Assembly: GCA_033220425.1 (NCBI GenBank)
Contig: CM065648.1
Location: 3,782,001 to 3,846,000, forward strand
Length of the DNA stretch: 64,000 bases
From: Lepraria neglecta
Lineage: Eukaryota; Ascomycota; Lecanoromycetes; Lecanorales; Stereocaulaceae
Direction of reading: 5' to 3'
Made by a program: the position numbers and the translations under genes. Within the stretch, counting starts at the first letter, position 1; every line of letters begins with the position of its first letter. This document shows, piece by piece, positions 287-57,510 of the stretch. The notes under the pieces are model-generated. The model did not search any database. It had not been told where the DNA came from and worked only from the letters and a program-made list of their open reading frames with translations.

Positions 287-289
287 ATA

Positions 290-17853: not shown

Positions 17854-17872
17854 CATCGCGCTTTCCCAAAAG
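17854..17872 (+). repeat. Left TIR of Y
   Basis: CATCGCGCTTTCCCAAAAG is the exact inverse of the last 19 bases of Y. The first C could instead belong to a 6-bp TSD; both readings restore B. Confidence 0.85.
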
Positions 17873-18954
17873 TTGCTAGGAAATCCCGAGTTGCCGAGCG
17901 CGCCGGTAGGGCTAATAGTTACGTTCAGCGGAATTAGCAACTCAATATTACTAATAGTATCAAATCAGCTCGATCTATAACTTAATACTACTGATTTAAC
18001 GATGTTAGGTTAGTTAGCAATTAGATATTACTATTAGTATAATATATAACCAATTAGTAATTAGATATTACTATTAGTATAATATCTAACCAATTAGTAT
18101 ATCTATTATGCGTTTAGCTAGCTATTAGCTCAATTAATAATATAACGCTACTAATATATAGCTACTAGTTTTCTTTTATTATAATTGATTACTTCTTATA
18201 TAGTCTATATATTTCTACTAATTAGTAGCTATATATCTTCTATACAAGATATAAGTAGATAGTCGAATCTAAATAAAGTCTTCTATATATATAATTCGTT
18301 TAAAATATAGCTACTACTAATAGCTCCTTTAGTATATAAAAGCTCGTTATTAGTAATATTAATATAAGTTTAACTCGCGCTTATACTAATCCTTCTTTAA
18401 CTTCTTTACGGGTTATTTAACTATACTTTCCTCGATTCTATAACGACCTATTATCCGCTAATTCGACTATATCTTCTACTCCTTATAATTCGAGTAAATA
18501 ACTAAGATAGAGAGTTACGATACCTAGTTACCGAACTATTAGCGGTACCTAGCAAAACTCTAGTAGATTAGAGGCGTATATATTTCGCCCTTTTTTGCCC
18601 TTGTCCGATTAGTATCCGACTCGGGTTTTATACTATCCGAGTAGTATCTAACTTAGGTTTACCCTATCCGAGTCGGATAAATATTTAGCTAGACGTTTCT
18701 TAATATTTCTTCTCGTAGTTTATAGTCTCGTCGCTATTATTTTAGTAAAGTATCGCTATAGATACTTAATATCCGACGAATTTACTCCCTATCTTCCCCG
18801 ATAGACTTTATATACAATACCGCGAGCTTAATAACCCCCCTACTCCTTAGCTTACCGAAGTACCCGAATATTAGTAACGTACGAGGGCTATAGACTCGAT
18901 ACTAAAGCAAGTAAATATTATACGCGCAAGATACTATATAGCCTACTAATATAA
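17873..18954 (-). other. Y subterminal region
   Basis: The region holds the tandem TTAGATATTACTATTAGTATAA-type subterminal repeats (about 18010-18110). The empty target of Helitron 1 is at 18079/18080, and a cluster of TCCGACTCGG/CCGAGTCGGA motifs lies at about 18613-18680. No gene is recognised; the sequence is strongly RIPed. Confidence 0.6.
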
Positions 18955-19685
18955 TCTTTCTTCTAATAATAGATTATGAGGAAATTCGGAGCAATTCCGC
19001 ACTTGTAGCCAATTAGATTGGCCCTATATTCTGTATTCCCTCTCTCGGCTAGCGCCTTCAACTACCAAAACTTGAATTCGTATCGCAACTTCTTTGCACT
19101 ACTTCCCCGCGCCATATACGTTATATGATATCGAGATGATTTCATATGTTTTGGAGTCAATTATTAGCTTGCTTGCGCATCAAGAATTTTTAGAATCGAT
19201 CTATTTACGCAATAGTTATGAGCAAAAGAAGCGTTTTCGCCATATTCTATATATACCGCGAGCTCGGTGGCAAATACCAAGCATTGAGCTGAATACGCAC
19301 CGTAACTTCTTTGCAGTACTTCCCCGCGCCATATACGTTATATAATATCGAAATAATTTCATAAGTTTTGGAACCAAGTATACGCTTTCCAACGCCGTTC
19401 GAATTTTGAAATTTGGCTAAGGTTTGGCTAAGGAAAGCTCAAAAAACATGTTTTTGCCTGCGGACTTCCCTGAGGCTACCCCCGCAGCCGCCCTCGACGT
19501 ACTAATATACTAAATCCTTAATAACTTTTGTACTATTAGGATTAGGGCTTAACTTTATATATATAAAATATACTATAAATAGAGGGCTTTCTAATTAGGC
19601 TTAAATTTTGAAAATCGAGTATTAAATAAGCGAGATATAGTAGTTTTTACGGTAATCTTCTGTGAAGATTACGGGCACTAACTTG
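18955..19685 (+). mobile_element. Helitron-like element, copy 2
   Basis: The 731-bp element starts TCTTTCTTCTAATAATAG after A (18954) and ends GGGCACTAACTTG before T (19686). The 9-bp-stem hairpin is at 19652-19672, again 13 nt before the end. The empty site is in Y-left at 3279/3280. It has fewer internal units than copy 1 and no coding capacity beyond chance ORFs. Confidence 0.75.
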
Positions 19686-20467
19686 TATAGCTATAATTAA
19701 ATATACCGAAGAGAGGATTAATACCGCTATAGTAATTAAAACTATAGGTTAGTTCTTTATATTAGAGGTTTTCCTTAAGACTAAAGCCTTAACTTTAGAT
19801 ATAGCGAGGGCGGTTAGTAATAGTATCTCTTCCGCTCTATCGACCTAGATATATTTATAGTATTATCTCTCTTCCTTTTAAGGGTTTTTACTTAGATTTA
19901 TAGTATTATCTAAGAAGGATTTAGTAGGAATTTAGCGTGGATTCGTCGCGCTGCCTTAGAATTATTTATTAGGAATTTAGGGTAATATATTATAGTATAT
20001 TAGTCCTAGTCGATGAAACTATTAATATAGAATATCTCTTTTCCTCTAACCGTTCCCGGTACTAGATAAGTACTTCGCTCGATATTTAGTAGTCTATAGA
20101 AGCGGCGAGCGTCTATTATTCGAGGATTAAGTATAAACGACACCTATACCTTTTTAACTTCGACTATTCTATAGTAGTCTTATACCTACCCTAGATATTA
20201 ATAATTAAAGACTTCTATAAGGGTAGCCTATATATAAGTAGGTCGTTACTTAAAGTCCCTATTACTAAGATCCTTTACCTCTATAATAACTAAGACCTTA
20301 CTAACTAACTTTCCCTTCTATATAGTTTCCGGGTTTCGACTCTTATAGTCTTATTCTCGGATCTATATATAATCTCTACGCTAGATAAAATACTATAAAT
20401 GTTTATAAAGTCTATAGACTACTAAATCCTTATAGAGATATCCTAAATTAGAGGAGTCCTCTCCTAT

Positions 20468-20973
20468 CCCTTAACCTATTAATCGAGTAGCCACCCCGAT
20501 CTATAGGAGATCGTGCTATATACGGTTAGCGGTAGCTAAGCGAGCCAATCAGATTTATTTGTGGTTATAAACATGCAATTCCATCCAATATTCGGATGAT
20601 TTATAGCAGCGTTTTCGCTTGCAACGAGTATTGCTACACCCCTAATAGCTTTCTGCAGGTATCCGATTTCTAACTTGCTCCAGCGAGGGCTTGCTTTTAA
20701 GGGCTTCCTTCGTAGTAGTAGGAAGCGTATTACTAGCTCCCGGTAGCTCTTCCTCGTTGAGGGCCATTGTAGTACTTTGCGCAAGCGATATAGGGTGGCT
20801 ATAGTAGAGTATAAAGCTAAAAATCGTTATTATCGTCATTTTCACGGTGGAGTAAATAGACTAGTAAATATCCATTTATGGTTAGCTTATTGCTTATTTA
20901 GGCTAAACTCCGAAGCCCTAACCCTAATAATCTCCTGCAGATCGGGGTGGCCGCCCGATCAACAGGTTAAGGG
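20468..20973. mobile_element. 506-bp TIR element (MITE-like)
   Basis: Inverted termini of 44 bp (20468-20511 and 20930-20973) begin CCCTTAACCT and include GCCACCCCGATCT. The element is flanked by AT on both sides, and Y-left (about 2496-2500) shows the uninterrupted target. CA and TG dinucleotides are well retained, so it largely escaped RIP, either as a late arrival or because it is short. Small ORFs inside (for example 20642-20845 minus) show no recognised domain. The superfamily is uncertain: a 2-bp TSD would fit Tc1/mariner-like elements, but those duplicate TA and here the repeat reads AT. Confidence 0.7.
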
Positions 20974-21354
20974 ATAGTCTTCTAATATACGAGGCCCGAA
21001 TAGATATAGACCGGGTAGCTCTCAACCCAGCTACAGTCTGCCTCCCTTCTATTAATATCTAGGTTCGAGGTTGTACTACCTCTATTTAGTATTTTCGCTC
21101 GGTATACCTTAAGAAACGCAGCCAGGCTTTAGAGAAACCTAGCTATATTCAGCTATTCAGCCATATCTCTCGCCGTTTGCCAGTAACGACTATCGTATTT
21201 ATATAGGTATCTTAATATATAGCGCTCTTCCGCGTCTACTCGCCATCCTAGTTAGTATAGATCTAGGAGGACCCCGGCCTTTATACTTTTCTTGTCTTCT
21301 TGTTTTCTCCTCTAACTAAGTAATATAGGCTCCGTCTCTTAGAAATTTTTAATA

Positions 21355-23144
21355 TCTTTCTTCTAATAATAGATTATGGCGAAATTCGGAGCAATTCCGC
21401 ACTTGCAGCCAATGAGATTAGCCCTATATTCAGTGTTCCCTCTCTCGGCTAGCGCCTTCAACCACCAAAACTTGAATTCGCATCGCAACTTCTTTGTACT
21501 ACTTCCCCGCGCCACATACATCATATGATATCGAGATGATTTCATATGTTTTGGAGTCAATCATTAGCTTGCTTGCGCATCAAGAATTTTTAGAATCGGC
21601 CCATTTACGCAATAGTTATGAGCAAAAGATGCGTTTTCGCCATGTTTTGCGGGCAGCGCGAGCTCGGTGGCAAATGCCAAGCATTGAGCTTGGCGCCTCC
21701 GGACCCTAGAACATCAAAAGTTGAATGCGCACCGCAACTTCTTCGCAGTAATGCCCCGCGCCACATATATCATATGATATCGAGATAATCTTATCAGTTT
21801 TGGAACCAAGCATACGCTTTCTAATACCGTCGAAATTTTCAAAATCGGTCTATTTGCGCAAAACTTATAAGCAATATTCGCACATGGCGATATGGCACCG
21901 GATTGCCTATTCGCACATGGCGATATGGCGGCAGGTTGGCTATTCGCACTGTTGGCGATATAGCACCGGATTGCCTATTCGCACATGGCGATATGGCGTC
22001 GGACAGCCTATTCGCACATGGCGATATAGCGGCGGATTGCCTGTTCGGCATATGGCGATATGGCACCGGATGGCTCATTCGCACATGGCGATATGGCGAC
22101 GGATTGCCTATTCGCATATGGCGATATGGCGGTATGTTGCCTATTCGCACTGTTGGGGATATGGCACCGGATTGCCTATTCGCACATGGCGATATGGCGC
22201 TGGATTACCTATTCTGCACATGGCGATATGGCACCGGATTGCCTATTCGCACATGGCGATATGGCGGTAGATTGCCTATTCGCACAGTTGGCGATATGGC
22301 ACCGGACAGCCTATTCGCACATGGCGATATGGCGGCAGGTTGCCTATTCGCACATCGAGATATGGCACCGGATTGCTCTATTCGCACATGGCGATATGGC
22401 GGTAGATTGCCTATTCGCACATGGCGATATGGCATCGGATTGCCCATTCGCACTGTTGGCTATATGGCACCGGATTGCCTATTCGCATATGGTGATATGG
22501 CGGTATGTTGCCTATTCGCACTATTGGGGATATGGCACCGGATTGCCTATTCGCATATGGTGATATGGCGGTATGTTGCCTATTCGCACTGTTGGGGATA
22601 TGGCACCGGATTGCCTATTCGCATATGGTGATATGGCGGTATGTTGCCTATTCGCACTGTTGGGGATATAGCACCGGATTGCCTATTCGTATATGGCGAT
22701 ATAGCGGTATGTTGCCTATTCGCACTGTTGGCGATATGGCACCGGATTGCCTATTCGCACATGGCGATATAGCGATCAGGTTACCTATTCGATATAACGG
22801 CAGGTTGGCTATTCGCACATAGAGATATGGCACCGAATTGCTCATTCGCATATGGCGATTTGGCGGTATATTGCCTATTCGTTCCGGGGGCGAAAAGTGT
22901 CCTGGAACCATCCGAACCATACAAAGCTTCAAAGATTATTTCTGCATCCTAGAGCTATCTAAATAGCTAGCTTTTATATATACCAAAACCGTTACTATTA
23001 TACAAAGTTATAGATAAGCTTATAATTTAACACTATAGATAGATTACTTTCTAATTTCGCTTAAATTTTCTAAATAGAGTATAAAATAAGCGAGATATAT
23101 TCGTTTTACGGTAATCTTCTGTGAAGATTACGGGCACTTACTTA
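21355..23144 (+). mobile_element. Helitron-like element, copy 3, with minisatellite
   Basis: The 1790-bp element lies between A (21354) and T (23145). It starts TCTTTCTTCTAATAATAG and ends GGGCACTTACTTA, with the hairpin at 23111-23131. The empty site is in Y-left at 2118/2119. Its left part matches copy 1 until about 21870, then a minisatellite (21876-22880) replaces part of the body. After it, about 160 bp of unique sequence leads into the common 3' end. Confidence 0.75.
21876..22880. repeat. 33-35-bp minisatellite, about 30 units
   Basis: Units run CTATTCGCACATGGCGATAT followed by GGCACCGGATTGC, with variants CACTGTTGG and GGCGGTATGTTGC. Most are 33 bp (11 codons, CLFAHGDMAPD-like), some 35 bp. 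Because unit length is mostly a multiple of three and the unit has no stop, overlapping ORFs of 100-240 codons open in several frames on both strands. I regard none as a gene. CA and TG are abundant, so the array is not RIPed. Confidence 0.85.
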
Positions 23145-24780
23145 TCCTATATAATTATTAACTTAATATAGCGTTCGTTATATTCTATTAATTACTCCTA
23201 GTAATCTTTATACTTATTTATTCGGTTATAGTAATTCTTTAGTAATATCGGATATACCCTTTCCGAGGCTTAGGTACTATATCTATCTAGCGGACCGTAG
23301 TATCTAATTATATTAATATAATAACTAATACTATAGAATTTGGGAAAGTTGAAAGTTTGCTCGCCCGTTTTCTTATTAACTGGCCTATATTTTCGAAATA
23401 CCTCCTTGAGTAGATCAATCCTTTCTAACGCTACGTTTATATATTCTAGTATTACTTTATTATAGGATTAGTATCTTATAAGTATAATAAAGTTAATAAT
23501 AGCTCGTCCTATATATAGTATATCTAGGGTTTTTTCGGATAATAGAGGAGCGAAGACGGGTATTATAATCTATAATATCTCTTTACTCTCCTCTCCTATC
23601 TATTAGCTTAGCTTACTAAACTCCCGAAATCACCTTAGCTTAGTAAATTTAGGTATAGCTCGAAACCGGGCGTCGATTAAGGCTTATACCTTAAGCTTTA
23701 TTTATCCCTCTCCGATATACTCCCTAAGCCAGTCTAGGAGGTAGTTTAATAGCCCTTTAACTATTAATTAGTATAATATATTAAACGTCTATAGTTAGTA
23801 GACGTTAACTGCGAAGTAGCCGTCTGTAAAGTTAGGCCGGTTATATACTATTATATCTAGTAATACCCTAGATATATTCTTATCGTACGTTTTTTATATC
23901 TATAACTACTCTATAGTCTATTCAGGTATTTGCTTTAGATATAGTTTTTCAGGATATAGTTATTCCTATTCATTTAGTAGTACTAAGTAGACCGGATAGT
24001 ATTTACTGCTCTTGATCGAGGTTATTAAAACTTGTTCCTTATAGTCGCCTAGTATAGACGCGAGTATTAGGTAGTATTATTATATTCATCCGTCTACGTA
24101 TATAATAAGGATCCCCTTCGGCGCCAGCTCCTTAAGTACTTTAAAAGAATATTATTAGTATATTAAGTAAGATCCGTATTTCGGCCGGCTTACCCTCGAC
24201 TATAAGCCCTATAGCGTAGTAATATACCTCGGCTTTTATACTATTATAGACTAATAGTACTAGTCCAAGCAATATTATCCCGGGCCGAACCTATACCTAC
24301 CGAATACCTCGATCGAGATTACCGATAGTAATATAGACTGGCTATACCTATTAATCTCCGTGTATCCGTAATAAATAGGTCTTATCTAACGATATTATAA
24401 CCGGTACTACTATTAAGCTATTAGGGAGCTTATCTTATATCTCCTACTACTAGTAGGCTATATATATCTTACTAACGATTAGACCCCCGTCAAGGTTTCG
24501 CTAGCGTATCGGTATATAGTTAATACTCGAATTAAAAGGTTTATATCCGATAAGAGTTCGTATTATACCTATTATATCGAAGTAGAGTATATAATATATT
24601 CTAGTTGTCTCGTCCGGTTAAATCGATAGGATACTAAACGCTTACCGAGACTATCTACTAGTAGTAGCAGAATACTTTATAGTATATAGCTTAGATTTTA
24701 GTTATAGAGCGCTATTAAAGCTATAGGGTCCGTGGAAAGGTCGTAATCGAGTATCTTTAAAGAAATTATCTATTATACCG
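23145..24780 (-). other. Y segment: core of the transposase pseudogene
   Basis: The stretch is colinear with 484-2118 in reverse complement. It holds the best-preserved transposase motifs on the minus strand. It ends at the TSD of chromovirus C (TACCG, 24776-24780). Confidence 0.65.
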
Positions 24781-25193
24781 TATTACGACCCACGGTAGTT
24801 ATATACCTAATGGTGCGATAACCAACCGTAGAGGTTCGTATATCTTATACTTCTGTAGGAGAGGAGTCACTTAGGTAGAATAGCAGTCTTCGGTTATATA
24901 GGTAATCAATACGTTCTATATTAATAACTAGTAAAGTATAGTACAAGGAATACCAGGAAGATTAACCAAGTTGAATATACTATTCCAAATAGTAGGAAGA
25001 CCCCTATATATATAGATATAAGAAATCCTACCAAGTATTCTATAAGCGTTATGAGCGCACGGCGCTTATTGCGCTTATTATTCTTGAGCGCTATAAGCGT
25101 ACAGCGCTCGTTGCGCTCATTGCTTCAGCTACTAGTCCTGTCTATAGCACCTTGTCCTATAGGATAGTCCTATTAGAACCTATAGTTCTAATA
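24781..25193 (-). repeat. 3' LTR of C
   Basis: The 413-bp LTR is in reverse complement; ends correspond to TGTTACGACC and GGTTCTAACA. U3 carries two GAGCGC/GCGCT-rich repeat blocks (about 25045-25125), against one in the 5' LTR. Confidence 0.8.
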
Positions 25194-25690
25194 CTAGCCC
25201 CCTCCTCTAGATTTCTCGTCCCGAGAAACTATCTATCCTTTATACCTCCTCGTCGAAATATCTATTCTAAAGATCCCCTCGTTCGCCGTAAAGAACTCTC
25301 TAGCGAATTATCTAGATTCGTAATATATCCTTATACCTTATATACGAAGGCCAATAAGTAATACTTAGTAGGTGTTCGTTCGGACCGTTATTCTAACTAT
25401 ATATCTATAGGTAAGAAGTATAACCTAGTTATATCTGTCGATAAGATACGTTATATTAAAAAAGTACGCGATAATACTTAGTTAGAAATAAAAGAAACGC
25501 AGGCGAAACTTATACGCCTTTAATTATAATTCGATTATATCTAGGATAAAGAGAAAAGATTAGTTAAGTACGAGTTATAGAATATTAAGGAGTTAGAGAA
25601 GGATAAAAACCTTCCTTCTAATACTCCTAACGGTTTAATATTTAATATCGGCTCTAAGTAGTTCGACCTCCCCCCGGCCTAGAGGGCCCC
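25160..25690 (+). pseudogene. Antisense accessory frame in C, decayed
   Basis: This plus-strand frame begins in the last bases of the LTR and continues past it (PSSRFLVPRNYLSFIPP, then RKELSSELSRFVI). It aligns with the frames in E and B. It is a fossil with no recognised function. Confidence 0.55.
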
Positions 25691-28600
25691 GAGAGTTTCG
25701 ACTAGTCTTCTCTTATCTCTAATAAAACTCTTATAGGTATTCCCTACAATTCCCCGCAAGGTTCCTAAGAGGTTCCCAGGTACTTTCCGTTTTGTTATAC
25801 CCTTTCTATTTAACTAGATAGAACTAATTTCTTCTATCTAGGATCCTCTCGACCTTATATTCCGTTTCTTCCTTAACATTATAATAAAACGTTTCTTAGA
25901 GTAGTATATTAGAGTCTACTAGCTCTAGAAGTAAGATATAGAATACCGGATATACTTTGGCGTCAGGCGGAAGCTCGAGTTTATAGTTAATAGCCCCCTT
26001 TACCTTCTTGATCAAGAATAGTCCGACCTTAATATAATCTAGTTTCTTACTTAGTCTCGTTATTTTTATATTTTTTGTTAGGAGGTATACTCTATCCCCC
26101 TCTTTAAGCTGAGGAATATTCTTCCTTTTACTATTAACGAGCTCTTTTAACTTATTATTTAAGCTTTTAATTATTTTTTATATATCTTTATATAAACTCT
26201 TTAGCTCTTCTACCTTAACTAAGGCTTTTTCTATATTAGGTCCTTCTCTAGATTATAGAAATATATTTATATTCTTTCCGTAGTTGGTAAAGAATAGTAT
26301 CAGGCCTATTATATCTAACCTTTTATTATTATATACTAGTTATACTATTAGAAGTAGTAAAACCTAGTTATCCTATTTCTGGTTTATATAATATCTTAGG
26401 TATACTTCTATTATTTGGTTTGCACGCTCTATTTATCTATTAGTCTATAGATAGTACGCCGTTAATATCCGAAGTTTAGTTCTAATTGCTACGATTAGTA
26501 TTCTCTAATAGTTAGAAGTGAATAACTTATCTCTATCGGATATTATCGACTTGGGTATACTATAATCCCTTATTAGCTTATCGAGTAGTATAAAGGCTAA
26601 CTAATCTACTTTATATATCTCCTTAAATGGTATTATAATTATATACTTAGTAAGTTTATCTATAATAACTATAATTAAATCGAAGGTATCCTATATAGCT
26701 AGATCTTTCGAAGGTAGTAGTTTGACTATAAAGTCTATTATAATATCATCCTATAGTGACCCTAGTATAGGCGTAAACTGAATTTGCTCGTATTTCGTAT
26801 ATCGCGCAGATTTATTCTACTAGTATTGGATATATTCTTTAATATATTATTTAATACGTGTCCGAAGTTTCGGCGCTACGTATCCTCGTCCTAGAAGTTC
26901 TATAGTTTTAGATACTCTAGGGTGACCTTACAAAGGGTTATCGTAGTAATCCCTAATTACTTCTTTAACGTATATATTAGGTAAGTAAGTTTTATCCTAA
27001 TATTTAAGCAATACTAAATCCGGTTAATCCTATCGTAGCTTTATTACGAATATATCGTTATTGTAGGCCTTTACGATCTTGTTAGTCGTGTCAGGTCCTA
27101 ATATACGAAGGGTTATTACTAATACCTAGTGCGGTACTAATAATCTATCGGCTTCTCGTTTTAGGATTAGTCGTTCCGTAACGTTCTTTTATTCTATATA
27201 GTCTAATCGCCTACTAAGCGTATCTACTCGACTATTATCCTTTCCTAGGGTATAGGTTATCTTGAACTTATACTATCTAAGTAGTTCTAACTATCTAACT
27301 TATCTTCTATTTAACTCCTTCGTTATTATAAAATTAAGAAGATTCTTATAATCTATAAAGATAGTTAGGTCTAAGTAGCTTTCTATATATACTCTCTAAT
27401 TTTAAAGTATATATACTACGGCAAGTAGTTCTTTATCGTGTATATTATAGTTTTATTCTACTACCGATATCTTTCGTAAAAAGTAGGTAACTAGATACTA
27501 CTTTTGGTCCTTTATTTAATAAAGGTATACTCCTATTATAATATCCGAGGTATCTATTTCGATACGAGCCGGTTCGTTAGCTTGAAAGGTATAGAGTACT
27601 AGAGGATCCGTATATACTTTCTTTAACGTATTAAACGATTTCTATTATTTATATCCCTATATAAATCCGATATCTTTCTTAGTAATATCTATAAGTAGAA
27701 GTACTTTCTTTAAGTAGCCTTTAATAAACTTCCTATTAAAGTTAGCGAATTCTAAGAAACTTTATATTACTTTAACGTTCTATAGTATAGGCTATTCCGC
27801 TATAGCTTTGATTTTTTCTAGGCTTATACTAATACCTTTTATACTAACTATAAATCCTAGGAACTTAATAGAGTCTCTATAAAACTTACACTTTTCTGGT
27901 TTAAGGAGAAGTCCCGCTTGTAATAGGTATTCGATAACGTCCTATATATACTTAACGTATTCTTCCTTATCCTTAGAGTAAATTAAGATATTATTAAGGT
28001 ACGCTATCGCTATTCGATCTAAATATACTTGTATAATATTATTAATAAGTACTTAGCAGGTTACTAGTGCGTTAGTGAGTCTAAACGGTATTACTAGGTA
28101 CTCGTAGTGGCTATATCTGGTCCGGAAGGTAGTTTTCCATTCTTCGCCTTCTTTTATCTAGATTAGGTTATATACCCCTCTAAGGTCTAGTTTCGTAAAT
28201 ATCTTTACCTTACCGAGCCGGTCCTATAGCTCGCTAATATTTGGTAAAGGGTAACGATTCTTGATAGTAATGTCGTTTAACTTCCGATAGTTGATATATA
28301 GCCTTAGACTTCTATCTTTCTTCGGCGCGAAGAGGATTAGATAATCTACTAGTGATTTAGATTCCCGAATAAATCCCTTCTTAAGGTTCTTATCGATATA
28401 CCCGCGAAGTATAGTAAGTTCCTTTTCTAATAATATATAGATAGATCCAAATATTAGCGTCTTACTAGGTTCGAGTTCGATTTTATAATCCTATAGTTAG
28501 TACTTAGGTAACGCTTTTACGCTTATCTCTTCCTCGAATAGGTATACCTACTATCTATATTCCCGAGGGATTATAGAAGGTTCGTCTTTTCCTTCGATAG

Positions 28601-33047: not shown

Positions 33048-33263
33048 TATCACGGCTTGGCCTTTACTTACTATTAGTGCCGATACGCGTAGTATAAAGC
33101 ATGGTTATCGAATATAGTTATCGAATATTCGATTATCGCTCATAGCTAGCGGCTTGGCGTATCTCCAGGACGCGTAGGCTTTATATATCTATCTTCTCTC
33201 CTTAGATATATTCTTCTAGTTATACTATACCCCTATCGACTTACTCTAGGCAGGCCCCTAATA
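33048..33263 (+). repeat. 5' LTR of D
   Basis: The 216-bp LTR is about 96% identical to its partner by eye. It contains a tandem TTATCGAATA motif. Confidence 0.85.
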
Positions 33264-44154: not shown

Positions 44155-46928
44155 CTTCTTCGTTCTAACTTAGCGAAGGGCCTCTACTTCTTCGTATTTT
44201 ATTCTTCCTATTATTACTATCCCTATTATACCTCTATATAATCTTACCGGGCTAGATATTCTTCTCTTACGGTATAACCTAAGAATATAACCTATAATAT
44301 ATAGAATCCTCTACGCGAAGACTCTACTACCTCTCCCGCTAAATTCCCCGCCCTAAAGCCTTATAAATTCTCCCCCTTAATTAAGTAAGCCTACTAGTAT
44401 TTCCTACCCGGCCTCTAAATAATCCTATACTTATCCGTTCTAATATAAATAATAGTAGCTATACTAGTAATTAGGAAGAGAAGGAGTAAGAGGAGGAAGG
44501 GGATACTATAGAAGAGAATAAGGAGAAGGCGTTAAAGGTTAGTAAGGCCTATAATAGTAGGGTTCCGAAGTTATATAATATTAAGATAGGTAGGGTAGTA
44601 GTAGCTAGAGTAGCTATAAAAGATCTAGAGGTATTAGAATAGGAGGATCGCAATAGGATATAAGTACTTTAACCTCTACCTTACTATTTACTTACTACTA
44701 AATACTACCCTAGTATTAATATAACTAAGGTAGAGGACTATCTATAATAGTCTTAGAAAATATAGTAGTATATAGAGTTATTATTTTAGCTATAGAAGGG
44801 AAACTAGTCTATATAGAATATACGAAACCTCCGTAGGTTATTATCTATTATAGCCCCTAACGGTAAAATAAAGAAGATCGTACCGTTTATTTATTAGCTA
44901 TACTATACGGCTTAGATAAGATAGTAGGCTTTCTAATAGAGGGGAGCTATCTATAGGCGAGATTCTAGTTTAGGGATATCTAAACTAAATTATTACTTCT
45001 ATTAAGGACTCTAGTTAACTTAGATAATATAGATATTCGACTCAGGCAATACTAACATCCGACTCTATCTAGATCGAAATCTATATATACAAAATTATCT
45101 AATAATTCGAAACGTCGCCTTATTATAATAAGTATCTCTTACTAGAGAGATTAAAGCTACGGAGTTATTACGATATATATCTATCGGCTTATAAATAGAA
45201 TATTAGTTATCCGTGTATCAAGAATAGCGCCGCCCGGAATATTAGCGTAGCGAAGTTAGGTATTATTCTTACTATTATACTAGCGAAAGTAGTAGGTAAT
45301 TAGTTATAATAGTAGATAAAGATAATCGATATAAAGCGGACGCTATATACTTAAGATATCTCTAGGACTACCGATCTAGTATAACTACCTCCCTATAAGA
45401 TTCGTTATATTATATACCCGCCTTCGCTAGTATAAAATATAGCTCTTCGTACTAAGGATCTAAGGATCTAAGACGAAGCGAAAGTAAAATATACTAGATA
45501 ATACGTAATTACTCGCAAGGCTAGTAAGGAGATACCTGCGCTAATAACTACCAACTACTTTAAACGTATATATAAACTACGCGCCGCTACTATAGTCCTA
45601 AGCCTTCTAGGATTCGCTCGGCTCGATAACCTATCTCTATATACGGATAAGCTCGAAGGAGGGGATTTATATAACGGCGGCGAGGGTTATATAAACTTTG
45701 TAGAGTTAGCTAATCTAAGAGAAGACTAGACTGAATACCCGCTAGCTAGTATCTATATCTATTATATCGAATATTTTGTTAATAATAGTCCGAAGTTAGT
45801 TATATTAAAGGATTTAATCGTTAAACTAAGGGAGGATATCGTCGGAAGACTATAATAACTATCTATAATTACTAAGCTATCTACTACTATATATATTCTG
45901 GCGATAGTAGGTCTATAGCTCTTCTACTATTTCGCCTTGGCTTTATACTAACCTTACCCTAGTAGTTTAAAAGGTATTATCCTAATAAATAACTATAGCG
46001 TAGCTTAGCCTTACCTTCCGGGTATAGCCCGGAAAGATATAGGATGGTATAGGATATTGGCTCTCTTACCTATCTAGAGGTATAGTATAGTATTAAGGTC
46101 TAAAATCCTATACTATTAGTAGGAGGTATGGGATCTCAATAGGATATCCTACGGTATGGGATATTAGTGGGATTATCTAATAGTACGGGATATTTTCGGG
46201 ATATCCTAGTGGCGGATAAGATAAGACCTATATAAAGTATACTTAGAATTTCTATTCATTATTCTAGTTATCAAAACTTCAAATTTTTTTTTGAATATTC
46301 TATAATATAGAATATTCTAGTAGGAAATATAGAATTATAGAATATTCAAAAAAAAATTGAAGTTTTGATGACTAGAATAATGACTAGAAATTCTAAGTAT
46401 ACTTTATATAGGTCTTATCTTATCCGCCACTAGGATATCCCGAAAATATCCCGTACTATTAGATAATCCTACCAATATCCTATACCGTAGGATATCCTAT
46501 TGAGATCCCATTCTATATCTCCTAAAAGATATAGGATTTAGGATCTTCTAATCCCATCCCATACCCAACCCTTGGGATATCCTATAGGATATCCTATATC
46601 TTTCCGGGCTATACTTCCGGGAAACGAGATAAATTATTTATATAGATATGCCAAGGAGATAACTATTATTACTTTGTTCCCCCTATAAACTACGTTCTTA
46701 AAACTAGTATTACCCTTATCTATACCTCTAGAAGCGTAAATATAGATATAGACTAGATAAAGTGCTATAGGATTTGATACTATAGGCGGGTTATTCGGTA
46801 GTAATAGCAAAGATAGAAGGTATACGAGTATAGTATATTTCTGGATAAGGCAAAGGGATCTTAATTTAATTATTATCTAGATAGGTAGATAGAAAGCTCT
46901 TAGTAAGAGTAGGTATAATATAATATAA
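44155..46928 (+). pseudogene. Second, shortened SNF2-like copy in Y
   Basis: This copy is homologous to 39640-42430. The shared blocks include LYNIKIGRVVVARVA (44574-44618; first copy near 40000-40045) and the ITRKAS/ECIPALI-like stretch near 45500-45545. It lacks about 0.65 kb found at about 40800-41450 of the first copy, the part holding the candidate motif II. It is interrupted by the foldback element and ends at Helitron 4. Either a tandem gene duplication inside Y or two related genes diverged; RIP decay is heavy in both. Confidence 0.5.
46023..46613. mobile_element. 591-bp foldback element with 8-bp TSD (hAT-like MITE)
   Basis: Nearly the whole element is an inverted repeat centred near 46320, with termini TATAGCCCGGAAAGATATAG and arms of about 280 bp. 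Direct repeats CTTCCGGG (46015-46022, 46614-46621) form an 8-bp TSD. The first helicase copy preserves the empty site CTTCCGAG at 42146-42153. An 8-bp TSD is typical of hAT elements, though TIR bases alone do not prove it. Repeated GGATATCC/GGGATATT motifs fill the arms. It is non-coding. Confidence 0.8.
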
Positions 46929-47947
46929 CAAGTGAGTGCCCGTAATCTTCACAGAAGATTACCGTAAAACGGCTATATCTCGCTTATTTTATACTCTATT
47001 TAGAAAATTGAAGTGAAATTAGAAAGCCCCGTATTTATAGTATATTTTATATATATAAAGTTAAGCCCTAACCCTAATGTATTAAAAGTTATTAAGGATT
47101 TAGTATATTAGTGCTTCGGGGGCGGCTGCGGGGGTGGCTGCGGGGGTAGCTTTAGGTTACTCCGGAGGCAAAAATATGTTTTTTGAGCTTTCCTTAGCTA
47201 AATCTTAGCCAAATTTTAAAATTCGAACCGCGTTGGAAAGCGCATGTTTGGTTCCAGAACTTATGAAATTATCTCGATATCATATAACGTATATGGCGTG
47301 GGGTATTACTGCGAAGAAGTTGCGGTGCGCATTCAACTTTTGATGTTCTAGGTCCGGGGGCGCCAAGCTCAATGCTTGGCATTTGCCACCGAGCTTTGCG
47401 CTGCCCGCAAAACATAGCGAAACCGCTTCTTTTGCTTATAAGTTTTGCGCAAATAGACCGATTTTGAAAATTTTGACGGTGTTGGAAAGCGCATGCTTGG
47501 TTCCAGAACTGATGAGATTATCTCGATCTCATATGACGTATGTGGCGCGGGGCATTACTGCGAAGAAGTTGCGGTGCGCATTCAACCTTTGATGTTGGTC
47601 TGGGGGCGCCAAGCTCAATGCTTGGCATTTGCCACCGAGCTCGCGCTGCTAGCAAAACATGGCGAAAACGCTTCTTTTGCTCATAACTATTGCGTAAATG
47701 GGCCGATTCTAAAAATTCTTGATGCGCAAGCAAGCTAATGATTGACTCCAAAACTTATGAAATTATCTCGATATCATATGGCGTATGTGGCGCGGGGCAT
47801 CACTGCGAAAAAGTGCGCAGCGGATTCAACTTTTGGTAGTTGAAGGCGCTAGCCGAGAGAGGAAATGCAGCTCTAAAGAGATGTTCTAATTGGCTACAAG
47901 TGCGGAATTGCTCCGAATGTCGCGATAATCTGTTATTAGAAGAAAGA
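46929..47947 (-). mobile_element. Helitron-like element, copy 4
   Basis: This 1019-bp copy is in reverse complement. Its 3' end (GGGCACTCACTTG, hairpin 46942-46962) is on the left, next to A at 46928 (T on its own strand). Its TC start is at 47947, next to T at 47948. It has about three internal ~248-bp units, retains many CA/TG dinucleotides, and has chance ORFs on both strands. No empty site for this copy is visible in the window. Confidence 0.75.
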
Positions 47948-48775: not shown

Positions 48776-49211
48776 TGTTAGAACCAGAAGGTTCTAATAG
48801 GACTGTCGTGAAGGACACAGGACTTCGGACAGGACATGTTGCTCGCAACGATCGCAGGCGCTAAGCGTGCGATCAATGCTATCACAATATGTTGCTCGTA
48901 ACGATCGCAGACGCTAAGCGTGCGATCACTACTATCGAGGAGGCTTGGCAGGATTTCTTATGTCTACATATACGGGGCTTTGCCCGTTGTTTGGAACAGT
49001 GTGTTCAACTTGGCAAACCACTACTTGGTTAATCTTCCTGGTACTCCTTGTACTATACTTTACTAGTTATTAATATAGAACGTATTGACTACCTTCAACT
49101 ACAAAGACTGCCATTCTACCTGAGTGACTCCTCTCCCACAGAAGCATAAGACATCTACACCCGCACCCGGTTATCGCACCGTTAGGTTACTAACCGGCGT
49201 GGGTCGTAACA
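48776..49211 (+). repeat. 5' LTR of E
   Basis: The 436-bp LTR runs TGTTAGAACC to GGGTCGTAACA. U3 has two ~55-bp units with GTTGCTCG and AACGATCGCAG, unlike the U3 of its partner. Confidence 0.85.
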
Positions 49212-52200
49212 CTTTAAACACCCTAAGGGATGAGTTCTTTAACAACTTCAGGCAGAAACCCTACCCTAAGTACCTTAACGGTTACTGGCTAGAGATGCTA
49301 AACCATGGACGAAGGATCTAGAAAAAGGATCAAGGTTGTAGTACCAGACCTGTACTACGGAGATAGAGACAAGCTTAAGCCATGGCTTACATAAGTATAA
49401 CTATACCTTTTGTTCCAGGGAGACCTGCTCCTAGTAACCAGATATACTACCTTCGCTATATTATACCTATGAGGACGGGCCCAAAAGTGGGTCGAACCTT
49501 TCCTAAAGAAGTATATGGAAGATGACGACGAAGACGGCGACGTTAAGTTATGGATGGAAAGTATGCCAAAATTTATGGTTGAAATCCGCCGTATGTTCGG
49601 ACCTTCCAACGAGGCAAACGTAGTAATACGCATTATTTAGTACATGAAGTAGAAGAAGTCAGCGTCAGAGTTTTTAACTTAATTTTAAATATACGCTACT
49701 AAAATAGGCTAGGATGATGATGCGCTAATGACGATGTATTGTCAAGGCCTTAAAGATAATGTTAAAGACGAGCTTATAAGATTTAGAGGAGTAATCGATA
49801 CTCTAGACGGACTTATTAAAAATGCGATCGAAATCGATAATAAGCTATTCGAACGATCTATAGAGAAGCGGTATGACGGAGGAGTTAGCGGAACCCGGTA
49901 TAAGGGATTCTTTTCGAAAACAAGGAATTACCGACAAGATTACGGAGAATATAATACTTACTATAGTATAGTACTAATAGAGATTAACTTTATTTAGATA
50001 GGAAAGAAGAAAGGAAACTTTAAAGGGAAAAAGCAGCACGGGGGAAAGAAAGTAATTACTTGCTATAGCTATAGTAAACTAGGCTATATAGCTAGAGACT
50101 GCAGGTCGAAGAATATAGTATACCGACTGCAGATTAATGTAATAGAAGGAGGACCTCTAGATAACGAGGAAAACTCCGAAGAAATATAGCTACTCTATAA
50201 TATAGAAGAATTGAGTTAGGATTCGGAAGACGATACCTTTGAATTAGAATTTAATGAAGAAGTATAGAGGTATTACTATAGGGATAGTAATAGATCTTAA
50301 TAGTATAAGACGGATTAGGAACAGCGGAAAGCTAGTCCGGAGAGACCAGCGTTAACACCCGAACCTGGATCTACTATATCCCAAGTAGAAGGAAAATTAC
50401 TGGAAATTAAAGAACCTTAATCGGACGAAGACGAATGTAAACTCTTCGATAAAATCGAAAGTAAAGTATAAGGCGTATTAAATAAGTAATTATCTGTAAA
50501 ACCCAAATGGGACGAACCTATACGAGACTATCGGTATAATAGGGAATATTAGTAATATGGCGAAATTCTATATACTGAATATATACTACCCGATTATTTA
50601 GTATATAGAGAGGAAAGGGGCTATCTGGCGAAAGAACGTACAGTACCTTTACTTAAGAAAGCTTACTATAGAGAAATATAGTAGTATAAGTATAAAGAAG
50701 ATAGGTACTAATAGTATCTTGCGAGTAAGAGGAAGTATTACTACTTCCTATACTTTATAGAAAAGTGGGAAAAAGAAAGAAATAACTTACTTAAAGTCTT
50801 TAAGAGAGGAGCTTATAACTAAGTACTATAGTATAGCTACCTATATAATAAATATATTCCGTATAAAGGTATAAAGGAAGTATATAGCTTCCTACTATTA
50901 TAGGGAAAAGAATGATCTCTTATGCTACAGGGAAGTATAAGGAGATTAATACGTTATTCCCCAAATAACAATTATGTTCCGCCCAATACTACACTTATAT
51001 TATTGTACTAGTGAATATTGATAGATAGCGGACCGTGGCGATAATAGACAGCGGAGCTACAGGAAATTTCATCTCAAGGAACTTAGTAGACTCGAGCGGC
51101 CTGCCAACCCGAAAGAAGAAATTGTCCTATAAGCTACGCCTGGCCGACGGGTTAGTATTCTCAACAGGAAAAGTAGAGGAGGAAACACGCTCCCTACTAG
51201 TAATAATTCAGTAATACTACAAGGAGATTACATTCGATATAGTTGGGATGGCTACTTATAATATCATTTTAGGAATACCTTGGTTAAATAAATATAACCT
51301 AGAAATTAACTGGAAGACGAAAATACTTAAATTCGGACGATCTAGAAACGTTACTAGTATTAGACCTATTAGTTGATAGTAGATGATAATAGATAAGAGA
51401 AAGAACCGAAGACCGGTCGAAGTATATATTACTTTATTCTTAAATAATAAGAGTGACTTCTAAGAGAGAAGGCTCGACTCCTTAGTTACTAGTAAGGGTC
51501 AGCAGGATACTAAAGAGAGAGCTATTGAAGGAAAAGACAAACCTTCTGCGATCCCTCGGGAATATAAACGGTAGGTATACCTATTCAAGGAAGAGACGAG
51601 CGTAAAAGCGTTGCCTAAGTACCAGCTATAGGATTATAAGATCGAACTCGAACCTGGCAAGGCGCCAATATTTAGACCTATCTATACATTATCAGAAAAG
51701 GAACTTACTGTACTTCGCGGGTATATCGAAGAGAACCTTAAGAAAGGATTTATTCGGGAATCCAAATTACTAGTAGGTTATCCAATCCTCTTCGCGCCGA
51801 AGAAGGACGGAAGCTTAAGACTATGCGTCGACTATCGAAAGTTGAACGATATTACTATCAAAAATCGGTATCCTTTGCCAAATATCAGCGAGCTATAGGA
51901 CCGGCTCGGTAAGGCAAAGATATTCACGAAACTAGATCTTAGAGGCGTATATAATCTAATTCGGATGAAAGAAGGCGAAGAATAGAAAACTGCCTTCCGA
52001 ACCAGATATGGCTACTACGAGTATTTAGTAATACCGTTTGGACTTACTAACGTACTAGTAACCTGCCAAGTACTTGTTAATAACGTCGTACGAGTATACT
52101 TAGATCGAATAGCGATAGCGTACCTCGACGATATCTTGATTTACTCTAAGAAAAAGGAAGAATACGTCAAGTATATATAGGACGTTATCGAATGCCTGTC

Positions 52201-54484
52201 GCAAGCGGGACTTCTCCTTAAACCAGAAAAGTGCGAGTTTTATAGGGACTCTATTGAGTTCCTAGGATTTGTGGTTAGCATAAAAGGTATTAGTATAAGC
52301 CTAGAAAAGATCAAAGCTATAGCGGAATAGCCTATACTACAGGACGTCAAAGTAGTGCAAAGTTTCTTAGGATTTGCCAACTTTAACAGGAAGTTTATTA
52401 AAGGCTACTTAAAGAAAGTACTTCTACTTACGGATATTACTAAGAAAGATATTGGATTTATATAGGGGCAAGAATAATAAAGGTTATTTAACACGTTGAA
52501 AAAAGCATGTACGGATCCTCTAGTGCTCTGTACCTTTCAAGCTAACGAACCGGCTCGTATTAAAATAGATACCTCGGATCTTATAATCGGAGTATGCCTT
52601 TATTAAATGAAGGACTAAAAGTAGCATCCAGTTACCTACTTTTCACGAAAAATGTTAGTAGTAGAATAAAACTATAATATACACGACAAAGAACTACTTG
52701 CCGTAGTATATATACTTTAAAATTGGAGAGTGTACGTAGAAAGCTACTCGGACTTAACTATCTTTACGGATTATAAGAATCTTCTTAATTTTATAACAAC
52801 GAAAGAGTTAAATAGAAGACAAGTTAGATGGTTAGAACTACTCGGATAATATAAGTTCAAGATAACCTATACCCTAGGAAAAGATAATGGTCGAGTAGAT
52901 GCGCTTAGCAGGCGATCGGACCATATAGAAGAAAAGAACGTTACGGAACGACCAATCCTAAAACGAGAAGCTGATGGATCATTGGTACTATATCAGGTAT
53001 TGGCAATGACCCTTCGTATATCAGGACCTGATATAACTGATAGGATCGTAAAGGCCTACGACAACGATACATTTGCAACAAAGCTACGACAGGATCAACT
53101 GGATTCAGTATTGCTCAGATATCAGGAAAAAACTTACTTACCTGATGTATGCGTTGAAGAAGTGATCAGGGATTACCACGATGACCTATTACAAGGTTAC
53201 CCTGGAGTATCCAAGATAATGGAACTCCTAGGACGAGGATACGTAGCGCCGAAGCTTCGGATGCGCGTTAAACAATATATTAAGGAATGTATTTAATGCC
53301 AGCAGAACAAGTCTGTATGATACGCCAAGTACGGGCAAATTCAATTTGCGCCTGTACCGGAATCACTATAGGATAATGTTATAATGGACTTTGTGGTTAA
53401 ACTGCCACCTTTGAAGGATCTAGCTACGTAGGATATCTTTGACTCAATTATAGTTATTATAGATAAACTGACGAAGTATATAATCATAATACTATTTAAG
53501 GAGATATACAAAGCAGATTAATTAGCCTTTATACTACTCGACAAGCTGATAAGAGATTATGGTATACCTAAATCGATAATATCTGATAGAGATAAGTTGT
53601 TTACTTCTAACTATTGGAAAACGCTGATCGGAGTGATTAGAACTAAACTTCGGATGTTAACTATATACTATCTATAGACTAATAGATAAACGGAACGTGC
53701 AAACCAAATAATGGAAGTATACCTAAGGTACTATATGAACCTGAAACAAGATAATTGGGTTTTATTACTTCTAATAGTATAACTAGCGTATAACGATAAA
53801 AGATCAGATACGATAGGTCTAATACCGTTCTTTGCCAACTATAGAAAGAACGCGAATATATTTCTATAAGCTAGGGAAGGACCTAACGCAGAAAAAGCCT
53901 TAGTTAAGGTAGAAGAGCTAAAGAATTTATATAAAGATATACAAAAAACGATTAAGAGCTTAAATAATAAGTTAAAGGGATAGGTCAACAGTAAAAGAAA
54001 GAATGTTCCTTAACTTAAAGAGGGGGATAAAGTATACCTCCTAACAAAAAATATGAAGATAACGAGACCAAGTAAGAAATTGGATTACGTTAAAGTCGGA
54101 CCATTCTTAATCAAGAAGGTAAAGGGGGCCGTTAACTATGAACTCGAGCTTCTACCTGACGCCAAAGTATATCCAGTATTCTATATCTCACTTCTAGAGC
54201 CAGTAGACTCTAATATACTACTCTAAGAAACGTTTCATTATGATGTTAAGGAAGAAACAGAGTATAAGGTCGAGAGGATCCTAGATAGAAGAAATTAGTT
54301 CTATCTGGTTAAATAGAAAGGGTACGACGAGACGGAAAGTACCTGGGAACCTCTCAGGAACCTTGCGGGGAACTGTAGGGAACGTCTGCGAGAGTTCCAT
54401 CAGAGAGAAGAGAAGACTAGTCGAGGCTCTCGGGGATTTCTATCCCGTCGGGGAGATCGAACTGCTCGGATAAGACGTTAAACA

Positions 54485-54850
54485 TTAAGTCTTCGGACGA
54501 CTTAGGAGTGACGCGCGTACCAGTTTCGCAAGCGCATCAGTCACTTCCTTACGTAACTTATTGCGCCGTTTCTCAACACGACGTATTTCAAGGGGCGATA
54601 CCACAAGGTCGCACTTCCGACCACCAGAAACATAGCTCGAACATCTATCAGAATCAGCACCTATGAGATACTGCTTGCCGTTGGCGACGTATCGAGAGCA
54701 GGGTCGTATAACGAAGTCGGAAAGTTCACTGGCCAGCTCCTTTGATCGGATGGCTGGGTTGGACGATCTTTTAGTACGAATAGGTGGCATGAAGGATGGA
54801 TAGTTTCTCGGGACGAGAAATCTGGAGGGGGAAGCTAGTATTAGAACTAG
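54485..54850 (-). pseudogene. Antisense accessory frame in E
   Basis: The minus strand stays open from within the 3' LTR to 54485. The conserved part runs from PSRFLVPRNYPSF through KELASELSDFVIRPCSR and DSDRCSSYVSGGRKCDL to a charged EIRRVEKRRNKLRKEV stretch that could form a coiled coil. The Cys-bearing part followed by a charged helix resembles short hypothetical proteins frequent in ascomycetes. Its place, antisense between chromodomain and 3' LTR, is shared by A, B, C and G. It is part of a fossil element; function unknown. Confidence 0.6.
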
Positions 54851-55265
54851 AAGGTTCTGACAGGACTGTCGCGAAGGACAGATGACTTCGGACAGGATAG
54901 GCAGGTAAAGCGATGATCGCAATGATCGCAGTGCGAGCAATACTATCAAGAATGATGATCGCAATGATCGCAGTGCGAGCAATACTATCACAGGATGCTT
55001 GGCAGGATTTCTTATATCTACATATACGGGGCTTTGCCCGTTGTTTGGAACAGTGTATTCAACTTGGCAAACCACTACTTGGTTAATCTTCCTGGTACTC
55101 CTTGCACTATACTTTACTAGTTATTAACATAGAACGCATTGACTACCTTCAACTACAAAGACTGCCATTCTACCTGAGTGACTCCTCTCCCACAGAAGCA
55201 TAAGACATCTACACCCGCACCCGGTTATCGCACCGTTAGGTTACCAACCGGCGTGGGTCGTAACA
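54839..55265 (+). repeat. 3' LTR of E
   Basis: The 427-bp LTR is nearly identical to the 5' LTR in R/U5. U3 instead carries two ~60-bp units built on GATCGCAATGATCGCAGTGCG. Confidence 0.85.
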
Positions 55266-57491
55266 TAGCTAACCTATACCGTACTACCTACACGGCGTAA
55301 GCGGCCGAATTCTAGTACCGTGACTACGGGATGATTATCTAATCCTAATAATCGGGTTCTATTATCTAAAAAGACAAGGCCTAGACTATTATCGACTTCG
55401 TTACCTATATCTATATATATATTAGATATTAAATCTAAAGATAACTATAAGGAGGTAACTACGGAGGAGGCGGTAGGACCTATCGCTTAGGGTAGTTCTA
55501 GGCGTCGCCAAGCGCAAAGATACTAATCCTTACGGGAATATTAATATATTTTCTACGTAATAAAGCCTATATTCCTCTCTAAGACTATAGGCGGTAATAA
55601 TACTAATAGCCTATCACCGTAGCTAGAATATAACCCGGTAGCTCTAAGTAACCTTATAATAAGAATATAGAGAGAATAGAAGGCTAAGCTCTAAAGAACG
55701 AAGGGGCCTTAAGTTATCGGCGATCTAGATACCTTAGGTAATATACTAACTCCTAAAGAAGCTCGCAAGGTTATTACTTCTAAACCCCTATCTATTTATA
55801 TAACGCCGCGTAATAGCTAATATCTTTATAGCTTATAGATAGCCTAAGCGAATTTAGAAGTTTTATAATAAGGAAAATAAGATTAACTATTAAAATAGTA
55901 GTAGAATAGCTATACCTAATAGTTAAGGACCGGAAGAATAATATATCGAACCTACTATTTAATATACGATTTACTTTCGCGGATCTAGAGAAAGGTATAA
56001 ATATTCTTCTTTCCTAAACGAGAATAAAATATATAGCTAACAGGTCTAAAATAAGGGTCGTTTTCTAGTACCGATAATTATAATAAGTCTATATCGCGTT
56101 TTTTCCCTAATAGAATAAGCGCTATTAGACTTAGGTATAAGAGTATAGATCTATAGAAACCTTTACCCGCTAGTACTATTATTTTCGTTATAATAGCGCT
56201 TTATTATATATTCGAAGAATATAAATATAGCTCCTATAGGATTAAGAGATAGGATAGTATATTAGTTAGTAGTAAGTCAACCTAATACTCGAAGAATAAC
56301 CTATATACTAATAATACCTTAAGCTATATTCGAATATATAATAGAGGTATAGTATAATATAGGTGAAATCAAAATACGGATAGTTACGGGACTACTTTAT
56401 CGTTAAATAATAGACTACTACTATATAAATAGGTATAGTAAGAACTATTGACTACTAGTTACTAATACGTTTAAGGATTCCCTAGAAGATCTTAAAAATT
56501 AACTAGACCTTTAGAGCGTTCTAGAGGAGATAGAAATAAATAATACTAGTATAATAGGCTAAGAAGAAGAGTACGGAAATAATAAAGAATATACGGTATA
56601 TATAAGAAGCGATTATAGATATATATTATTAGCTAATACTAAAATTAAGGCTAAAGAACTATCTCCTAAGGAGGGTCTCGACAAGACTAATTTAGAGTTT
56701 AGAAACTAGGATAGTTTTTTCGCTTCCCTTACCTTCGGTAATAATTTAGTAGAGATAATAGATATCTAGGTATTTTTAATATAGGACTTCGAGTATATAT
56801 AGAAGGAGGCTAGTCTATAAGTAGATAAGAGTCTTTAGGAAGAGGATCGTATTATAGATATTAAAGAGTAGAGTAGGTCGGTAGAGAGGTGGATTATAGA
56901 GGATAAAATAGTATATCTAAATATTATTCTAATAGGAGAAGAACCTAAGGACTAGGCTGCTAAGGATACTACGGAGGGGATAGAGAATAGATTAATAGAG
57001 TATAAAGCTTAGGCGGGAGGAAGCCTAACGGAATTAAGCTATTAGTAATCGAATATATAGCTATTAAATATATAATATGAAAATAATTATCGTATTATCT
57101 TTTAAAATCGCCTAGCTCGGATAATACTACCTGCAGGTTAATTCTAGATAAGATATCTAACTCGAATATACCTACTATAGCGGAGGATGTATCCGAACTA
57201 TCCGACTCGGATAACTTCTTATCTACTAATATTATCGATATACTACCTAAGTATATATATTTCGTATTCTAGAATAAATGCGTAATAGTAGTATTGGTCT
57301 ACGAAAGCAACTTTTGATACTGATATTATAGGTACCTAGCGCAGTAATTTGAGGTTATAGATACTACTATCGGCAACCTCGAGTTACTAATTTGGCTAAT
57401 TTCTCGGTCCGTAATCGATATAGGATGCAGACCCTAATCGCTATACGGCCTACTAATAGCGCAAAACTAGCTGTGACGCTAATAATATAAT
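55266..57491. other. Right part of Y, unassigned
   Basis: Strongly RIPed; I recognise no gene. There is a coding-like, Glu/Asp/Lys-rich plus-strand stretch at about 56480-57010. A TCCGAACTA-TCCGACTCGGA motif pair lies at 57192-57212. Near 57320-57490, AGTAATTTGAGG/GAGTTACTAATTTGG repeats recall the subterminal repeats of the other end. Confidence 0.4.
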
Positions 57492-57510
57492 CTTTTGGGA
57501 AAGCGCGATG
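57492..57510 (-). repeat. Right TIR of Y
   Basis: CTTTTGGGAAAGCGCGATG is the exact inverse of the left TIR and is followed by TSD TTCCT. Confidence 0.85.

Follow-up and report, generated by a model that had tools for sequence, protein, structure and literature searches.

Does the 39.7-kb stretch at positions 17854–57510 of a 64,000-nucleotide piece of the Lepraria neglecta genome (GCA_033220425.1, contig CM065648.1, positions 3,782,001 to 3,846,000; here the window, from whose first letter such positions are counted) hold one transposon in which a Plavaka-type transposase and a SNF2-type ATPase travel together, and if so, what would the ATPase do there? Guests included, the stretch is a copy of an element of canonically 17.2 kb that is present about 40 times in this genome and has three kinds of gene: Plavaka near one end, a DUF6532-like gene towards the opposite end and, midway, a divergent SNF2-type gene. 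We are highly confident of this anatomy and of the classification that follows from it, a copy of a large multi-gene cut-and-paste Plavaka transposon (CACTA/En-Spm-related) killed by repeat-induced point mutation (RIP). The fuller proposal, that the SNF2 protein aided the element's own transposition, is one towards which we lean with some reserve.

The element is bounded by two exact copies of a 19-bp terminal inverted repeat (TIR), CATCGCGCTTTCCCAAAAG, as stated in the initial annotation of this locus; none would be expected by chance. The copy at 17854–17872 (plus strand) forms the end on the transposase side (L end) and continues into TTGCTAGGAAATCCCG, and the copy at 57492–57510 (minus strand) forms the R end and continues inward as ATTAT. 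The repeat starts with CATCG, giving the termini CATCG..CGATG. The 5-bp target-site duplication (TSD) first proposed was rejected: the window flanks, TTCTT and TTCCT, agree in TT (17852–17853 and 57511–57512, from flank comparison and empty sites) and differ beyond these 2 bp. Among eleven copies, the window copy included, the 2 bp beside each end agree in nine, and a TSD of 3 bp or more was found in none. The ten other full-length copies contribute eight of the nine (TA, AT, AA, TG or TT), and the two without agreement are C3:4510946 and C4:1172912. When partners were shuffled, a mean of 2.9 copies agreed and nine was reached in one of 5,000 shuffles. The claim that the host repeat rejoins across the insertion held up well. 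A 400-base query of the joined window flanks with one TT matched at least 38 places across the junction with no net gap and at 88–92% identity, the match covering query positions 1–266, all 200 bases of the left flank and 66 of the right; since scoring covered 40 of 455 candidates, 38 is a lower bound. These gap-free empty sites indicate that the window element inserted into a repeat and that the duplication is 2 bp.

Across the 42-Mb genome the TIR occurs exactly 123 times and its reversed control not once. Extended end patterns with up to two mismatches located 48 L ends and 98 R ends. The search for inverted TIR pairs that had been suggested, carried out here in the same genome by greedy pairing according to orientation within 60 kb, was productive: it returned 41 L–R pairs, with 19 of 17,174–17,287 bp, 20 longer, as expected from nested guests, and two shorter, at least one of which is mis-paired. 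A 5,720-bp pair was considered as a short autonomous element and rejected as a mis-pairing with a nested miniature inverted-repeat transposable element (MITE); the second short pair measures 3,506 bp. The size of ~16 kb given initially therefore fits the window copy, which holds ~16.1 kb of element sequence, and not the canonical element, since the window copy has lost ~1.1 kb (element 13885–14977) at the guest at 48776–55266. The MITE, 617 bp long, joins the element's R end to an L-like end and carries 2-bp TSDs; ends and TSD were read in two copies that are 96% alike (fetched loci L005:1501–2117 and L007:1501–2109). It was likely mobilised in trans, and it may be the reason why R ends outnumber L ends.

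Ten copies of 17,206–17,258 bp were fetched from the 19 pairs near 17.2 kb and oriented with the L end as position 1, which defines the element coordinates used here. They are mutually 91–94% identical. The alignment has 17,264 columns; variation is confined to transitions in 3,219 and is of other kinds in 38, and gaps occur in 107. The variable C precedes A in 825 and G in 687 of 1,629 cases, the invariant sites left across copies number 16 for CpA and 13 for TpG, and the RIP indices of the copies agree with RIP-type mutation. Divergence made up almost wholly of transitions indicates that nearly identical elements amplified first and were RIPed afterwards. Pairwise alignments of the ten copies often begin ~790 bases from the L end, dividing the copies into sets, which are perhaps variants of the L-end region produced by recombination or by a change in repeat number.

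The transposase gene survives in the window as a minus-strand remnant at 19820–31354 (element 1268–3989), in four blocks split by guests (19820–20464, 20977–21356, 23143–24780 and 31284–31354). The Plavaka-type call made initially is borne out by the Pfam profile Plavaka (PF18759), which matches 24261–24617 on the minus strand at E = 4.7e-13, two frames of C3:2122674, the copy least affected by RIP among the ten, at 1.2e-18 and 5.5e-9, and a copy on C9 at 1.1e-30 and 5.3e-13. The profile check proposed for this locus thus succeeded in part: 23145–24780 gave the Plavaka match, SNF2 scores in this family stayed under the cut-off, and the stretch 287–3200 proved to belong to a second copy of the family and not to the 17854–57510 element. 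Genome-wide the same profile marks 84 Plavaka places. Four families account for the 12 best places, F1 (the 17.2-kb element), F2, F3 and F4, with ~28–40% protein identity between families; the transposases of F1 and F2 are 31% identical. Large mobile elements of other kinds have their own hallmarks, a DUF3435 captain in Starships and PolB with a retroviral-type integrase in Polintons. No match to these was obtained in the six frames of C3:2122674 at E ≤ 0.1, in a scan that read stops as X and whose sensitivity is lowered by RIP.

The SNF2-type gene (SNF2-A) lies at 40363–42423 on the plus strand, divergent from Plavaka, within a region corresponding to element 5.2–9.15 kb; motif I is near 40363, the main exon at 40526–41929 and the C-terminal lobe (C-lobe, motifs V–VI) at 42061–42423. 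In the better copies, examined by eye with stops read as X or star, stretches that we take to be helicase motifs I, Ia, III, IV, V and VI occur in order: GGINRDDPGFGKV for motif I (GFGK in six of the ten copies, GFSK in four), IILVIVPAKVIGNWLQEW for Ia, GFSATPW for III, EKLVIFTS for IV, and a V–VI block in a different frame. Within the 518 codons of the main exon, 34 are stops in some copy, yet no stop is shared by the whole set of ten; the five other frames of the same stretch have 17–40 stops common to all ten copies. The absence of shared stops indicates that the main exon had an open frame at the time the family expanded. A six-frame search of the genome with the C-lobe (E ≤ 10) returned 93 places. 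Of these, 91 are RIPed copies or fragments, 40–100% identical and interrupted by stops. The remaining pair consists of intact host genes, C2:4840964 (30% identity, E = 0.0066) and C1:5874085 (26%, E = 0.018), and both are SNF2-domain genes (1.3e-83 and 1.5e-56, respectively). Among other searches, the best PDB match of F1 was fft3 at E = 0.16, the SNF2-A main exon on its own had no PDB match, and the best NCBIfam score on F1 was 0.14. Open reading frames from eight Helicase_C loci also found nothing in the element frames by BLASTP, an unfair test because none of the eight is one of the genome's SNF2 places.

Family F2 provides a better preserved relative. At C2:5946001–5964000, a Plavaka gene (7.3e-39) stands divergent to matches with SNF2-rel_dom (0.014) and Helicase_C (2.2e-4), which follow each other as expected, and in a separate profile search Helicase_C exceeded the Pfam cut-off. 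The F2 gene reads LADEIGFGK at motif I and QAVKRIHRIG at motif VI, and its C-lobe matches a SNF2/Rad54-family helicase (6.3e-7) and Rad5 (4.6e-5) in the PDB, followed by FUN30, DDM1, INO80 and others. Its protein aligns with that of the F1 copy C1_6077 at 22% identity over 409 residues (E = 2e-4 and 2e-5, values that come from very small databases). There is good support for a divergent Plavaka–SNF2 pair in each of the two families, and the two SNF2 genes are likely of common descent. The divergent SNF2-family ATPase of the initial annotation holds up, the call being strengthened by the host SNF2 genes that the C-lobe finds and by the clear SNF2 matches of F2. The termini of F2 were sought and not found. 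Short matches to the F2 SNF2 gene at C3:3983350 (54%) and C8:3000918 (44%), the latter ~9 kb from a Plavaka place, are possibly further families.

A series of results weighs against the proposal that a transposon of this kind was served by its own SNF2 motor. Every copy read is RIPed, the window copy heavily, and none is intact, and the copies thus offer no evidence on activity. SNF2-rel_dom (E = 0.039, one of seven F1 copies) and Helicase_C (E = 0.0098, one of nine) remained below the Pfam cut-offs in F1, and on the main exon SNF2 was outscored by DUF6848 (0.023, two of seven copies), a match that we set aside as chance-looking together with CoV_NSP10, Como_SCP, Dit-like, DUF3267 and DUF4999. 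At the motif II site all ten copies have N in place of D (NEFH in two, NEFY in five, NKFY in three); if this aspartate was absent in the living element too, ATPase activity would have been weak or none. The motif I frame has stops near the motif in all ten copies, the C-lobe frame has three stops in 121 codons common to the ten, the Plavaka gene lacks one long open run, its longest parts free of shared stops measuring 116–186 codons, and in the DUF6532-like region there are shared stops as well as a 1-base indel in five of the ten copies. Such shared stops could stem from introns, from saturated RIP or from damage already present in the master copy. Between families, no alignment to the F2 SNF2 gene was found for F1 copy C3_2122, comparison of the F1 and F2 SNF2 profiles was weak (hhalign, E = 0.053 and 0.005), the F2 SNF2 query reached no F1 place in the genome at E ≤ 10, and in F3 no SNF2 was found within the 6.5 kb read. 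Our confidence in the overall explanation was lowered because of the shared stops and because the F1–F2 SNF2 match holds with one copy only. The sub-threshold Pfam scores of F1 could also be read as a sign that the middle gene encodes a superfamily 2 helicase outside the SNF2 group, a reading that we regard as very improbable in view of the PDB matches of F2, mostly SNF2-family chains, and of the two host genes that the C-lobe matches, both of them SNF2 genes.

That the two genes belong to one element is supported by the ten fetched 17.2-kb copies, all of which hold Plavaka and SNF2 inside a single TIR pair, as had been claimed from the window alone. A divergent Plavaka place occurs within 25 kb at 38 of 41 SNF2-A places, and within 6 kb at 34; these are the first 41 rows listed, with at least 258 of 468 residues, from a search that scored 91 of 171 candidates, and they were compared with 42 Plavaka places assigned to F1 by eye. 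The three places lacking a listed Plavaka within 25 kb would be expected if a short Plavaka element and a separate, unrelated SNF2 element had been joined. We find such a history hardly credible: besides the ten copies with both genes in one TIR pair, no TIR-like end lies between the transposase and SNF2 halves of the window copy (up to three mismatches allowed), the order is the same in F2, and SNF2-only units with their own termini were looked for among the ten copies and in the window and none was seen. A different possibility is host origin: the element would have captured the SNF2 gene and carried it as a passenger, retained by chance or to the host's advantage. TIR elements capture genes, and the relict state of the second SNF2 copy (SNF2-B, described below) indicates that the cargo was maintained only in part. 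Against this stand the divergent Plavaka at 38 of 41 places, a main frame that was open at amplification, the same divergent pair in a family whose transposase is only 31% identical, and nearest host genes only 26–30% identical over the C-lobe, and we therefore judge a passenger origin to be quite unlikely.

The second, shortened SNF2 copy noticed initially is a partial, collinear duplicate of SNF2-A at 44258–46846 (plus strand), with 45079–45798 and 46613–46846 matching SNF2-A. In element coordinates, 10977–12919 duplicates 6399–7056, 7308–7516 and 8175–9050 at 77, 76 and 71% nucleotide identity. Among the listed matches SNF2-B is without residues ~95–310 of the SNF2-A exon, and having no counterpart of 7517–8174 it lacks motifs II and III. 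A second working gene was rejected for SNF2-B on account of seven stops in 276 codons common to the ten copies; it is a relict that either predates the burst or was RIPed earlier as an internal repeat. A second SNF2 copy is also seen in four places in F2; besides the C2 locus, this family with its divergent SNF2 and partial tandem duplicate was noted at C6:962043, C6:1694611 and C8:2071115. In the one F2 duplicate read, the 5′ 158 bases continue directly into what is the second half of the SNF2 gene, at breakpoints unlike those of SNF2-B and such that motif I is missing.

The third gene was placed by alignment at 56097–56240 on the plus strand (element 15808–15951), the window copy itself not being among the genome matches. 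The DUF6532 profile (PF20149) matches this stretch weakly (E = 5.4e-4, in two of five copies scanned). At E ≤ 1 there are 18 DUF6532 places in the genome: seven in F1, 1.3–1.5 kb from the R end and two of them above the cut-off, and eight divergently upstream of other Plavaka places. A divergent Plavaka stands within 36 kb of 15 of the 18 places and within 13.5 kb of 11; at the shorter distance the figure for 20,000 places drawn at random from seven contigs is 1.0%. The three lacking one are C10:36307, C1:3255288 and C2:5964057. Two of the other Plavaka places beside DUF6532, C8:181665 and C2:170222, belong to F4, to which the remaining ones were assigned by matched profile range only; between the F4 Plavaka and its divergent DUF6532 the distance is mostly 9–12 kb. 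This linkage suggests that DUF6532 is probably a transposon protein. For two Ganoderma species, DUF6532 and Plavaka both appear in a list of additional domains (PMC8955403).

How might these proteins have acted together? By analogy with CACTA-group transposases, the Plavaka protein would cut at the TIRs and move the element by cut and paste. An element-borne SNF2 motor could clear the ends, the promoter, the target or the transpososome of nucleosomes or silencing proteins, by stripping or shifting them, and such clearance would let a 17-kb element be transcribed, have its ends paired and be moved. A protein that manages host chromatin during transposition, as the initial annotation had it, is plausible; that SNF2 has such a chromatin or transpososome role, moving nucleosomes or silencing proteins for the element, is a tentative view that we hold with slightly more doubt than belief. 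The F2 gene invites another assignment, since its best PDB matches, the SNF2/Rad54-family helicase and Rad5, rank ahead of FUN30, DDM1 and INO80: the protein might be a DNA translocase or repair factor of the Rad5/Rad54 type that works on transposition intermediates or on the donor break, not on chromatin. That comparison used the C-lobe alone, and no RING-like accessory domain was found by Pfam in the frames scanned; we consider this role unlikely. A broader conjecture is that large Plavaka transposons form a multi-component class in which the SNF2 ATPase and DUF6532 are obligatory transposition or anti-silencing factors, DUF6532 thus being a transposon component. The tandem partial SNF2 duplicates of F1 and F2, which differ in their breakpoints and have each lost some of the N-lobe, would have arisen separately and may initially have been dominant-negative self-regulators. 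This is speculative and, taken as a whole, rather unlikely.

Further open frames accompany the three genes. One of 358 codons, with no stop common to the ten copies, lies at 32596–39588 on the plus strand (element 5231–6304), upstream of or N-terminal to SNF2, and is split by the guest at 33047–38962. Neither it nor frames of 173 codons (from element 10258) and 168 codons (16674, minus strand) had a credible Pfam match. The element sequence in the window forms nine collinear blocks separated by eight guests. Three guests have direct terminal repeats of ~215–440 bases (24781–31283, 33047–38962 and 48776–55266), and others include a 591-bp foldback and a 512-bp element with inverted ends. The long-terminal-repeat-type guests at 24781–31283 and 48776–55266 are related (86% alike, in opposite orientation), and the direct terminal repeats of the guest at 33047–38962 are 96% alike. 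One repeat family with internal repeats accounts for four guests (18948–19685, 21357–23142, 46924–47946 and 4155–5183), which sit in two copies of the element. The second of these copies, at 1–5429 on the minus strand, is the right-hand part of an element of the same family whose L end is at 5411–5429 and which for the most part extends beyond the window's left edge; it includes a Pfam Plavaka match at 640–1002 (plus strand). A MITE of the 617-bp kind occupies 1–286, ending at 286.

Several known systems invite comparison. Entons were reportedly introduced by Kapitonov at a conference in 2012. In our literature search, one meeting report and a single citing sentence were all that turned up on them and on the Intons; there, Entons appear as fungal multi-gene DNA transposons derived from En/Spm, with a SNF2 helicase and five to six conserved proteins, and Intons as IS3EU-derived, with a SNF2 helicase and several conserved proteins (PMC3520738; PMC3627910). 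According to these short descriptions, the family studied here resembles Entons in its fungal host, En/Spm ancestry, several proteins and SNF2 helicase, the last found in both F1 and F2 if the SNF2 call is right; Plavaka is grouped with EnSpm in CMCT by Kojima (2025; PMC12730594). The five to six proteins described for Entons, as opposed to three kinds of gene here, tell in their turn against our proposal, and the likeness is one to short descriptions of Entons. On this basis the window family is probably an Enton. Intons share the SNF2 helicase, but their described ancestry is IS3EU and not Plavaka.

PlavakaB elements have a Plavaka transposase, accessory genes (TET/JBP cargo), a TSD of 2–3 bp and termini CATCA..TGATG (Kojima, 2025; PMC12730594). 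The TSD here, 2 bp in nine of eleven copies and in both MITE copies read, falls in that range, and the termini agree in four of five bases, whereas the cargo differs, being SNF2-type and DUF6532-like; no TET/JBP was found by Pfam in the frames scanned, and SNF2 is absent from the main text of that paper. The Plavaka-flanked giant repeats of Amoebidium, described as reaching 50 kb, are clusters with many tyrosine-recombinase genes, and unlike the window family they come with no mention of SNF2 in the text available (PMC11244446). Enlarged En/Spm (CACTA) families of 16–20 kb with four to five open reading frames, cited for the red alga Chondrus crispus (in PMC6431247), are of the same size class and superfamily in another host kingdom, the likeness extending to size and superfamily alone. 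The impression that no large SNF2-bearing Plavaka element had been described is right in so far as our literature search found no paper with both Plavaka and SNF2, and goes too far in that Entons with SNF2 had already been mentioned. The window family is accordingly no new kind of transposon but a well-resolved member of one that has barely been described.

For elements of the Enton type, firm termini, a TSD, a copy number, a gene order and a second family are now available, and DUF6532, a domain without assigned function, is tied to Plavaka elements. With these in hand, it becomes testable whether cut-and-paste transposons bring their own chromatin motor.

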